A stretch of DNA of 64,000 bases from Chthonomonas calidirosea. GTDB taxonomy: Bacteria; Armatimonadota; Chthonomonadetes; Chthonomonadales; CAJBBX01. Both the position numbers and the translations under genes were made by a program. The DNA is taken from positions 62,001-126,000 of the forward strand of contig DYKI01000001.1 of the NCBI GenBank assembly GCA_020722705.1, written 5' to 3'. The notes under the pieces were generated by a model. It was not told the origin of the DNA. It saw only the letters and a program-made list of their open reading frames with translations, and searched no databases. The first letter of the stretch is position 1; every line of letters begins with the position of its first letter. Below are positions 7,903 through 10,518 of this stretch, piece by piece.

Positions 7903-9345
7903 TCAGCGCTCACCTTCCAGACGGATGGTGCGCGCCCCAATCCTGTCAACGATGACCCCTGCCACGCTGGTCTCGACATCCAGGAACGCGGTCTTTGCAT
8001 GGCCAAGCGCACGCAGCGGAACTTCGAACAACGTCGCAGTTGCGTCGCGGCTCACCCGGACTCCCGGCGGGATCGTTGAGGCCCTACCGCGAAGCGACAC
8101 GTTGATCGCCCCGCTCATCGTTCCACGTTCCGGATCGCCCAGATATCTCAGGCATAGCCGCATTTGCGCGAGCGCGGATGGCCGCCCCACGGTCTCAACT
8201 CTGATGTGGAAGTTGGCCGCATCGGCGGCTGCCTCTACTACACGGATATCGGCGTACGGCTGCGCACGTCTAATGATATTGTCGTCCACCGCATCAAGCG
8301 CGATCGGTTTCATGGCCGCTGGTGCAACGAGATCATGCAGCAGCGTCATCGGGGATTGCGCAACCATCGCGTCAGGTATGGCACCGAGGAACTCGGTCGT
8401 TCTGACGAACGACATGAGGAACCGTCGTGCGATTGTGGTCTGGCTGCGGTATGCCTTGACTGCCCGCAACTTGGCCAGTACATCGTCACGCGACAGCCGG
8501 AGGCCGTGCCACTCGGTGTCGAGGCCGAACATCTCCGCGGGAGGAGCCAGCGCCGCGTCCGGCCTGAGCCCCTGAGGCTGCGGCCAGTCGCCCCGATGGA
8601 TGAGCCAGTAATGGAGACGAAATGGCGCATGCGGATCCGTTCCGCCGGCGCGCGCGACGGCAACGGCCATCTGTGTGAAAGCCGACACGGCCGCATGGTC
8701 ACCATGGTCATCCGCAGGATGCGGCAGGATCACATCTGTGGGTTCGAACTCCTCGATCTCTTGCCGGACGATCTCCAGCAACGAAGACCCGGAGAAAACC
8801 GCACCAGGCCGAACTGCCCATCCATAAGGCACCACAGATGTACCTGTCGTCTGAGAGGGCAGGGCCATCATGTTCGACCAGTTCGTACGCCAAAGCCGCA
8901 TCAACACTCCATCGGGCATCCCGGCGAAGCGCAGGTCATCAGCCCGAAGGCCGAGTTCACGCATGGCCGCGATGGCCTCCGACCGCCTGTACTCGCCGAA
9001 CTTGACGTACTCCGCAGGACTGATCCCCAGTTTGCGGTAATGGCGTCCGGCGGCAGCGCGGAAGCCGTCACCGTTGGTGATGAACAGAACCCGAACGGCT
9101 GCGCCTGAAGCTGCCGCCTGTTTGATCAGGCCCGCGCAAGCGAGGGTCTCGTCGTCCGGGTGTGGAGCCAGCACCATGAAGCGCCGATCGGCTGTGGGCG
9201 GTGGACAATCGAGGGCCAGATGGGTGGAAGCCATTCGGTCGGCTTCCTGCGTGCGAATGACGTAGCGCGCACTTGCGCCCCCGACCCATAGGCAGGGAAG
9301 CAACGCTGCTAGGATGATCCGTCGGGCAAGTGAATGCGCGCTCAA
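7903..9345 (-). CDS. Exported PIG-L (LmbE-like) family deacetylase
   Basis: A 480-residue protein with an N-terminal signal peptide ending near ASA at residue 26. The PIG-L domain follows at about residues 55-300. HPDDE supplies the catalytic Asp and zinc ligands, and HPADDHGDH supplies the third zinc ligand. Family members remove N-acetyl groups from GlcNAc conjugates. The C-terminal 150 residues are a beta-rich extension of unknown role. The start used is a TTG at 9345, with a GGGGAG site only 3 bases away, so the exact start is uncertain. It is first in a run with the dehydrogenase, URO-D-fold and GH38 genes. Confidence 0.88.
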   Translation of the reverse strand: MSAHSLARRIILAALLPCLWVGGASARYVIRTQEADRMASTHLALDCPPPTADRRFMVLAPHPDDETLACAGLIKQAAASGAAVRVLFITNGDGFRAAAGRHYRKLGISPAEYVKFGEYRRSEAIAAMRELGLRADDLRFAGMPDGVLMRLWRTNWSNMMALPSQTTGTSVVPYGWAVRPGAVFSGSSLLEIVRQEIEEFEPTDVILPHPADDHGDHAAVSAFTQMAVAVARAGGTDPHAPFRLHYWLIHRGDWPQPQGLRPDAALAPPAEMFGLDTEWHGLRLSRDDVLAKLRAVKAYRSQTTIARRFLMSFVRTTEFLGAIPDAMVAQSPMTLLHDLVAPAAMKPIALDAVDDNIIRRAQPYADIRVVEAAADAANFHIRVETVGRPSALAQMRLCLRYLGDPERGTMSGAINVSLRGRASTIPPGVRVSRDATATLFEVPLRALGHAKTAFLDVETSVAGVIVDRIGARTIRLEGER

Positions 9346-9438
9346 GTGCTCCCCTATTGGCGGTCAGAGGGCTTTCGTGTGCTTCGAGACCTGCTTATGG
9401 TGACGTTCGCCGGCATAGCGAACGCTTGCGGCATAGAA

Positions 9439-9531
9439 TGGCGGAGCGAGTGGGATTCGAACCCACGAACAGGTGTTACCCCATTACACGATTTCCAGTC
9501 GTGCTCCTTAGGCCAGCTCGGACATCGCTCC
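9439..9531 (-). tRNA. tRNA-Ser (anticodon GGA), CCA encoded
   Basis: The gene reads from 9531 down. The acceptor arms are GGAGCGA and TCGCTCC, with a long variable arm typical of serine. The anticodon stem CACGA/TCGTG encloses CTGGAAA, giving anticodon GGA. The T-loop is GTTCGAAT. Discriminator G is followed by an encoded CCA. Confidence 0.97.
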
Positions 9532-9545
9532 GCGAGTCGGAGGCT

Positions 9546-9575
9546 AATATAGCAAAGCGCGCCGCCGGGTGTCAA
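9546..9575 (-). promoter_or_regulatory. Promoter of tRNA-Ser(GGA)
   Basis: A perfect -35 box TTGACA (9570-9575) and a -10 box TATATT (9546-9551) are spaced 18 bases apart on the minus strand. The -10 box lies 14 bases before the tRNA 5' end. The -35 box falls in the loop of the hairpin at 9559-9585. Confidence 0.75.
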
Positions 9576-9585
9576 CCGGCGGCGC
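9559..9585 (-). terminator. Terminator hairpin after the prepilin gene
   Basis: Arms GCGCCGCCGG (9559-9568) and CCGGCGGCGC (9576-9585) pair perfectly over 10 bases around a 7-base loop. In the minus direction the hairpin is followed by a T-rich GCTTTGCTATATT tract. It would end transcripts from the prepilin gene just before tRNA-Ser. Confidence 0.7.
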
Positions 9586-9598
9586 ATCAGTTAGCTAT

Positions 9599-9614
9599 CC
9601 GACCAAGTGGTCGG
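9599..9614. repeat. Short palindrome downstream of the prepilin gene
   Basis: Arms CCGACCA (9599-9605) and TGGTCGG (9608-9614) are perfect complements separated by AG. With the hairpin at 9559 it forms a double stem-loop between the prepilin stop and tRNA-Ser, perhaps part of the same termination region. Confidence 0.45.
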
Positions 9615-9642
9615 CAGTCGAAGCACTATGTCCTCGGGGTGC

Positions 9643-10449
9643 TTACCAGTCGCGCGGCCAGTTGCGGTTGTCCGTTGCCGCCCCCCGCCATGCTCCGCCC
9701 TCGAACACGAAGGACGTGTGGTAGAAGGACTGGGTCGCAGACGTCTTCACGTGGCCGTCCGTGAAGGAGCACACGGTCTGTCGGCCTGACATGAACTTGC
9801 GGATCGGCACGCTCCTCGTGAAGGTCGGGACGTTGGTGGATCCGGGCTGATGCGGCCCCCACACTCCGACATAGTACGGATCCGTCGCGATGTTGCCGAT
9901 CTTGGCCTGCGGAGGTCGGCAAAGTTGCGCACCCTCAACGATCATGATCGTTTCTGACGGCTTGTTCAGGGAGGCCAGCGGCGCAGGGCGATTATACGAT
10001 GGGTCCTGCCAGGGACCGTACGCCGAACTCCGCGCTGCCGGATTCACGTTCAGGTTGAGGCCGCCGAGCGTCCAATAGTTGTAGGCGTAGGTGTTGCTCA
10101 GGATCGAGAGCTGAGCCTTGGCGGTTGGGCACGCCCAGACGTCCTTGATCTCGGTTGAGTTGTTGGCGGAGTTGTACCGGATGCCCGACTTGATGTAAGG
10201 ATCAACCAACCGGGGATACATTGTGCCCCAGATGTTCCAGCGGTACCCTCCCGTCCAGACGACAAACGTCTCGTCATAGTCCTGGGCGTACATGAGCATA
10301 CCGGTGGCTATCTGCTTGAGGTTCGACGTACAGGCCGTCTGACGAGCCTTCTCGCGCGCCTGAGCGAACACAGGGAACAAGATGGCCGCCAGGATAGCGA
10401 TAATAGCGATCACAACGAGCAGTTCGATTAGCGTGAAACCCTTGCGCAT
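9643..10449 (-). CDS. Prepilin-type protein, DUF1559-like (type II secretion/pseudopilin family)
   Basis: A 268-residue protein whose N-terminus is the class III signal [20 protein letters not shown]. It should be cleaved after Gly4 and methylated on Phe5, leaving a hydrophobic helix and then [12 protein letters not shown]. This exact style, together with DGHVK near the C-terminus, marks the prepilin families abundant in Armatimonadota and Planctomycetota. In the family motif H-x9-DG the first His is replaced by Ser here. The start at 10449 is chosen over one six codons upstream because a GAAAGGA site precedes it. It follows the small membrane protein at 10519-10857 and ends at a strong hairpin. 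The assembled structure is unknown. Confidence 0.92.
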
Positions 10450-10518
10450 TTGCGTTTCCTTTCGCAACGTGAGCGCGCACTGCGCGGCGCCGCCACGTTC
10501 AGATGAGTGGTGGTGTCT

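Follow-up and report, generated by a model that had tools for sequence, protein, structure and literature searches.

In the window (the whole 64,000-nt stretch of Chthonomonas calidirosea DNA analysed here), a hairpin behind a type IV prepilin-like gene carries the -35 box of the tRNA-Ser(GGA) promoter in its loop. We propose that this hairpin probably terminates or insulates the prepilin transcript at its 3' end and has been compacted onto the promoter of the tRNA, which is of the sigma-70 type. The overlap is seen in the anatomy of the site, in its conservation, in its recurrence before tRNA genes and in its association with co-directional upstream genes. A first-pass annotation had held that terminator and promoter share the same bases at this site; hairpin and promoter do overlap here, the sister species keeps the overlap and the layout recurs, although covariation at the tRNA-Ser site is absent.

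Hairpin and promoter at the tRNA-Ser(GGA) gene

The features of the site, all on the minus strand, are as follows (window positions).

9643..10467 (-), DUF1559 type IV prepilin-like gene, co-directional and directly upstream; from the ORF list and Pfam
9585-9559 (-), hairpin, 5'-GCGCCGCCGG TTGACAC CCGGCGGCGC-3', 10 Watson-Crick pairs, no mismatch
9576..9585 (-), 5' arm of the hairpin, immediately 5' of the -35 box
9569..9575 (-), hairpin loop TTGACAC, 7 nt; the complete -35 box TTGACA is 9575-9570
9559..9568 (-), 3' arm of the hairpin, within the promoter spacer
9551-9546 (-), -10 box TATATT, also part of the tail 3' of the stem
9439..9531 (-), tRNA-Ser(GGA); ARAGORN; Rfam RF00005, 53.2 bits
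7903..9345 (-), PIG-L (GlcNAc-PI de-N-acetylase family) gene, downstream of tRNA-Ser; Pfam

The hairpin with 10-base arms reported at 9559-9585 was recovered as a perfect 10-bp stem on the minus strand, and an extra outer G-T pair (9586/9558) flanks it. The first-pass annotation had placed most of the -35 box in the loop; the loop in fact holds all six bases of TTGACA. It had also put a TATATT -10 box 18 bases beyond the -35 box, and this is borne out: the spacer between the two hexamers is 18 nt long and carries the 3' arm, followed by GCTTTGC up to the TATATT at 9551-9546. The two boxes together match the consensus at 11 of 12 positions, and 14 nt separate TATATT from the tRNA. In its two hexamers, in a spacer within the range of 16-19 nt and in the distance to the tRNA, the site fits a sigma-70-type promoter of tRNA-Ser.

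The same hairpin is also well formed as the stem of an intrinsic terminator. It is GC-rich, with 10 bp and a 7-nt loop, its stem and tail have a predicted folding energy of -24.0 kcal/mol, and it lies 57 nt after the stop codon of the prepilin gene, whose product matches N_methyl (4.2e-9) and SBP_bac_10/DUF1559 (2.5e-7) in Pfam. Compared with 200 shuffles, the fold of the 106-nt region around it is more stable, with z = -3.98. The tail is the less regular part: in the eight positions after the stem, GCTTTGCT, T stands at four, and no T run is longer than 3. The tail GCTTTGCTATATT departs from a proper U-tract, which places a caveat on the earlier statement that the hairpin ends the prepilin transcript. 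Rfam searches over 9300-9800 gave only the tRNA above the gathering score and no family for the hairpin. A second small hairpin, CCGACC-4 nt-GGTCGG, lies at window positions 9599-9614 (-), between the prepilin stop codon and the main hairpin; no counterpart was seen in the part of the sister species' sequence that aligns.

Conservation of the site in the sister species

The window genome (G000) was compared with the sister species (G001), the only other genome of the genus (g1) in the comparison. The gene order prepilin, hairpin, tRNA-Ser, PIG-L is kept there, and the prepilin protein in the same place (locus L002) is 85% identical. Between the stop codon and the hairpin the two genomes differ in length and align poorly. 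Hairpin, spacer and -10 box together show one change, at the sixth base of the -35 box (TTGACA to TTGACT). The 10 shared stem pairs are identical, and changes on the left side in the sister species add outer pairs, giving a stem of 15 pairs with one G-U; the perfect stems within the genus measure 10 bp and 12 bp.

The first-pass annotation had named covarying stem pairs and a loop that keeps TGTCAA as support for both roles. Covariation was not found at tRNA-Ser(GGA): both species carry the same arms, so there is no compensatory pair change. In the loop, five bases of the -35 box are kept and the last one varies (TTGACAC versus TTGACTC).

As a control, the tRNA promoters of the two genomes were matched by anticodon, giving 19 pairs (21 rows, from which two non-orthologous tRNA-Met were excluded). 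Ser-GGA ranks first among them for conservation, with a spacer identical at 18/18 positions and an upstream flank at 10/11. In the other 18 pairs the identity of spacers runs from 6/18 to 15/17 (median 0.50) and that of upstream flanks from 1/11 to 7/11, orthology being assumed for six of these pairs, which have an ungapped tRNA identity of at most 0.30, probably from shifted gene boundaries. The tightly held spacer and upstream flank, read from these alignments, point to a constraint on both arms that would go beyond the promoter.

Outside the genus, a promoter was called at 27 of 28 Ser-GGA loci, with a TTGAC or TCGAC -35 box at 24 of 28, and none of the 27 callable promoters has an embracing perfect stem longer than 5 bp. 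The hairpin is present in 2 of 30 Ser-GGA loci overall, and the conservation of stem and loop, proposed earlier as a check in relatives, holds for the sister species and fails at the 27 promoters elsewhere. In the loci compared, which span about 1.5 kb on each side (two are shorter), a PIG-L relative adjoins tRNA-Ser(GGA) in 26 of 29 other loci by tblastn; the prepilin was found in one of the 29, that of the sister species. Considering that the hairpin is absent from these 27 promoters and that, among the 29 loci, the prepilin was found only in that of the sister species, the hairpin goes with the co-directional prepilin gene and not with the tRNA. The Ser-GGA hairpin is one evolutionary event, not many.

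Chance, repeats and the search for the hairpin elsewhere

We scored 1019 TTGAC sites in 460 kb of the window genome, window included. A perfect stem of at least 10 bp whose loop (16 nt or less) contains TTGAC occurs at one of them, Ser-GGA alone; with stems of at least 8 bp there are six, Ser-GGA among them. Against these 6/1019 sites, perfect stems of at least 8 bp are found at 2/22 tRNA promoters of the window genome (p 0.011) and 1/23 of the sister species (p 0.15). When one stem defect is allowed, the counts become 2/22 (p 0.08) and 2/23 (p 0.09) versus 21/1019, and the enrichment is not significant. As the enrichment over TTGAC sites at tRNA promoters is mostly non-significant, the case rests on the orientation contrast described below and on conservation. 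Among 55 promoter-like sites in the same 460 kb, some of them tRNA promoters, a stem longer than 6 bp occurs at Ser-GGA only; this stretch, which is the whole of the non-tRNA control, is too small to judge whether tRNA genes are special. A further list of 140 promoter-like sites was judged by eye only.

A dispersed palindromic repeat was considered and rejected: the arm core GCCGCCGG-N3-12-CCGGCGGC has no more than three occurrences in the window genome, with three different loops, and one in the sister species. A pattern scan of the named genomes with the hairpin core CCGCCGGTTGACNCCCGGCGG gave two stretches. One is the sister species itself (JAAYVH010000033.1, Chthonomonadales bacterium, of an order of Armatimonadota). 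The other, in a Rhodopila MAG, was set aside as a chance match, as it lies inside an open frame of 1025 aa with no tRNA in the surrounding 8 kb.

Recurrence before other tRNA genes

Five genomes (G000, G001, G003, G005 and G008) were searched for the same layout. They hold 219 tRNA records, two of them being duplicates for tRNA-Glu(TTC); 35 that stand second in a tRNA operon, 7 more with less than 300 nt upstream and 12 without a promoter call were left out, giving 165 promoters free of duplicates. Whether the upstream gene is co-directional or divergent was decided by two methods, of which the second uses a codon-usage score; they agree on 131 of the 165 promoters and on all seven positives.

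Perfect stems of at least 8 bp around the -35 position, a cut that was chosen, like the test, after several cases were known (Val-CAC came from a later sweep), occur at 7/71 promoters behind co-directional genes, 0/75 behind divergent genes and 0/19 of unclear orientation (p=0.0055). With the first method the counts are 7/76 versus 0/89 (p=0.0038), where shuffled flanks would give 0.48 and 0.38. The contrast is kept with a cut at 7 bp (9/71 versus 1/75, p=0.007) and for TTGAC -35 promoters only (5/42 versus 0/53, p=0.015). Collapsing orthologues leaves 5/60 versus 0/61 (p=0.027), or 4/39 versus 0/45 for TTGAC only (p=0.043), p values that are modest. Under a looser definition, which admits G-U pairs and takes the best hairpin per region, embracing hairpins number 4/76 versus 1/89, a difference that is not significant (p=0.14). 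Hairpins of at least 8 pairs at any position are found at 25/76 co-directional and 17/89 divergent promoters (p 0.03), lying wholly upstream of the -35 box in 14 and 12 and embracing it in 4 and 1, respectively.

The seven positives come from the window genome (3/31 promoters), the sister species (2/32) and G008 (2/33); the other two of the five genomes, G003 (0/35) and G005 (0/34), have no case. They are Ser-GGA and Gln-TTG in both g1 species, Gln-CTG in the window genome, and Leu-TAG and Val-CAC in G008, with predicted folding energies of -24.0 to -32.5 kcal/mol. In all seven the stop codon is at most 67 nt from the -35 position, and several embracing stems start at most 16 nt past the stop.

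Individual sites illustrate the association with orientation. At tRNA-Gln(CTG) of the window genome, a perfect 13-bp stem with TTGACA in a 15-nt loop begins 6 nt past a co-directional stop codon; in the sister species the gene upstream of this tRNA is divergent and the best stem has 4 bp. The reverse is seen at tRNA-Pro(CGG), where the sister species (L152) has a bulged 8-pair stem with the -35 box in its loop behind a co-directional gene, and the window genome has a divergent upstream gene and no stem longer than 3 bp. In G008, the tRNA-Leu(TAG) hairpin (11 bp, 12-nt loop) follows a GFO/IDH/MocA oxidoreductase gene and its stem ends 1 nt before TATAAT. G008 shares its Leu-TAG and Val-CAC hairpins with two further species of genus g8, G010 and G011.

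The Gln-TTG pair (L156 in the window genome, L157 in the sister species) calls for some caution. Both hairpins stand behind the same ychF gene end, with stems that end 1 nt and 0 nt before TATAAT, respectively, and the 5' arm in the window genome falls within the last ychF codons. Neither genome has a good -35 box at this site; the hairpin occupies the -35 region instead. The two stems lie in the same place and differ in sequence, which points to selection for a hairpin there and not for its sequence. RNA fold predictions for Gln-CTG, Leu-TAG and Val-CAC show part of the -35 bases paired at the apex; on these models, a -35 box in the loop holds strictly for the perfect-stem definition and for Ser-GGA only.

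Other observations were made at tRNA genes of these genomes. The gene upstream of tRNA-Pro(CGG) in the sister species has a DUF1559 match (E 6.8e-5), and TTGACACCCGGCGGCGCG at this site is 18 nt identical to the window's tRNA-Ser promoter; a gene-end and promoter cassette may possibly have been copied between the two sites. At tRNA-Phe(GAA) of the three g8 species (L148, L149 and L150 in G008, G010 and G011), a hairpin of about 8-9 pairs lies past the stop codon and abuts the -35 box. Its sixth pair, read by eye, is A-U, G-U and G-C across the three species, so that pairing is kept, and it is probably a covarying terminator adjoining the tRNA promoter. In the window genome the -35 box forms one arm of an inverted repeat at tRNA-Val(CAC) (L039, GCAAGTCAA...TTGACTTGC) and at tRNA-Gly(CCC) (L044, TGTCAACGCAGTTGACA). 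Hairpins in presumed leaders were seen at tRNA-Gly(TCC) in the window genome (L032, 10 pairs) and the sister species (L063, 7 pairs), with differing sequences, and at tRNA-Trp(CCA) in the window genome (L042, 12 pairs), where the sister species has none of at least 7 pairs.

Hairpin tails and gene ends in the window genome

In six of the seven positives at least three T stand in the 8 nt past the stem, largely because the -10 box is there. Six of the seven tails therefore fall on the U-rich side of a split made in the GC-rich S. clavuligerus, where at least 3 T in 8 nt sets U-rich structured 3' ends apart (PMC8269248); the energy scale of that study need not transfer.

In the window genome, stems of at least 8 bp are only a little commoner after stop codons (47/306) than before starts (37/297, p=0.18), and are rarer inside genes (27/308) than after stops (p=0.008). 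The tails of the post-stop hairpins in the 460 kb have no T enrichment (T frequency 0.09-0.30 along the tail), and 2 of the 47 have at least 5 T of 8; the genome seems to have few classical U-tract terminators. This means that terminators here are of a U-poor type or that the hairpins do something else, and the weak post-stop signal requires U-poor termination or 3'-end protection if the hairpins have a role. Structured 3' ends that lack U form a large class in S. clavuligerus, where they could be I-shaped terminators or mark the ends of Rho-terminated transcripts (PMC8269248). The distance from the gene may also matter: an E. coli terminator several bp past a gene is almost fully repressed and its strength grows with distance (PMC4824070), which speaks against the terminator reading for the several stems within 16 nt of a stop codon; the Ser hairpin at 57 nt would be better placed than the Gln-CTG hairpin at 6 nt.

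Discussion

Wherever a co-directional gene ends just upstream, the hairpin is best read as the end of that gene's transcript, and perfect stems of at least 8 bp, found only behind co-directional genes, would be expected of a terminator or insulator but not of an element that regulates the promoter. From the layout of the site, we infer that transcription would terminate at the hairpin and that the tRNA would start at the embedded promoter. In the prepilin mRNA the arms would pair, and the polymerase would be stopped, or largely stopped, near the -10 box and kept from running through tRNA-Ser. In double-stranded DNA the initiation complex would read these bases as promoter, the loop serving as the -35 box and the 3' arm as part of the spacer; the weak-hybrid tail of the terminator would be the AT-rich -10 box. 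The superposition probably reflects a lack of room between stop codon and promoter, considering that the stop lies at most 67 nt from the -35 position in all seven sites.

The placement behind co-directional genes would also be explained by a stem that stabilises the mRNA 3' end or stops its processing, with transcription ending farther on or by Rho and the stem protecting the trimmed prepilin 3' end. The poor U-tract at Ser-GGA and the missing T enrichment past the 3' hairpins of the window genome fit such a stem, as does the large class of U-lacking structured 3' ends in S. clavuligerus (PMC8269248). We nevertheless regard it as unlikely, since a stabiliser could sit anywhere after the stop codon, where 57 nt are free, and its superposition on a promoter would stay unexplained; in addition, six of the seven tails have at least three T. 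Alternatively, the inverted repeat may serve the tRNA promoter, as the operator of a dimeric regulator or as a cruciform that exposes the -35 box under supercoiling. In favour of such a role, conservation extends over the promoter and both arms but not over the sequence from stop codon to hairpin. This seems very unlikely, however, as perfect stems of at least 8 bp are absent from the 75 divergent promoters and present at 7 of 71 co-directional ones, as the 27 Ser-GGA promoters outside the genus do without the hairpin, and as the arm sequences mostly vary among tRNAs (the GCCGCCGG...CCGGCGGC core turns up at no more than three places in the window genome).

Least credible, and already disfavoured, is coincidence, in which a GC-rich genome would have placed an inverted repeat around one -35 box by chance. 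The hairpin is indeed found in only 2 of 30 Ser-GGA loci, two of the five genomes have no case, and the excess over all TTGAC sites loses significance once a stem defect is allowed; against this stand the longest perfect stem of 1019 TTGAC sites in 460 kb, the exceptional conservation of the Ser-GGA block and a recurrence of 7 where shuffles give 0.48. Finally, a terminator lying on a promoter may allow a hand-off, in which the polymerase would let go of the upstream RNA while positioned on the tRNA promoter and, with sigma retained or recruited anew, begin the tRNA without dissociating from the DNA. The supply of tRNA would then be tied to upstream traffic and the layout would be a reusable part that evolved several times, a reading amounting to recycling termination at zero distance that we hold to be quite improbable.

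The reading that we prefer, a gene-end terminator or insulator compacted onto the tRNA promoter, shows how far the two elements may merge, with loop, 3' arm and tail being -35 box, spacer and -10 box. If it is true, annotation that treats terminator and promoter as separate elements misreads such sites, and the layout is a compact design for an insulated promoter. It would also provide natural sites for asking whether polymerase recycles from terminator to promoter in cells.

Comparison with known systems

In E. coli, the frd terminator lies after the ampC start, where it acts as an attenuator. The tRNA-Ser site resembles this overlap in that one compact region holds both the terminator of a transcription unit and the start of the following one; unlike in frd/ampC, the hairpin here has the promoter within it and precedes the start. 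With intrinsic terminators, and with the S. clavuligerus 3' ends (PMC8269248), the site shares a GC-rich 10-bp stem, a 7-nt loop, a position past a co-directional stop codon and 4 T in 8 nt. It departs from intrinsic terminators in that the loop and the 3' arm are promoter elements and the tail is partly a -10 box, not oligo-T.

Recycling termination provides the third comparison. After hairpin termination in vitro, E. coli polymerase recycles to nearby promoters; on one template 37% of termination events were followed by reinitiation, and 55% when sigma was added (PMC6978380). In E. coli and B. subtilis, most terminators are no more than about 1000 bp away from a promoter (PMC11347151). The tRNA sites are like these in that a promoter stands near a hairpin terminator and could be reused by a polymerase that stays on the DNA. 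An earlier description of complete superposition repeated before tRNA genes was not found among the open-licence PMC matches listed. The passages of PMC6978380 and PMC11347151 concern in vitro templates and genome distances in E. coli and B. subtilis, whereas here the two elements are superposed at zero distance before tRNA genes. Each component is ordinary; what appears to be new, as far as the matches listed go, is the complete superposition together with its repetition before tRNA genes.
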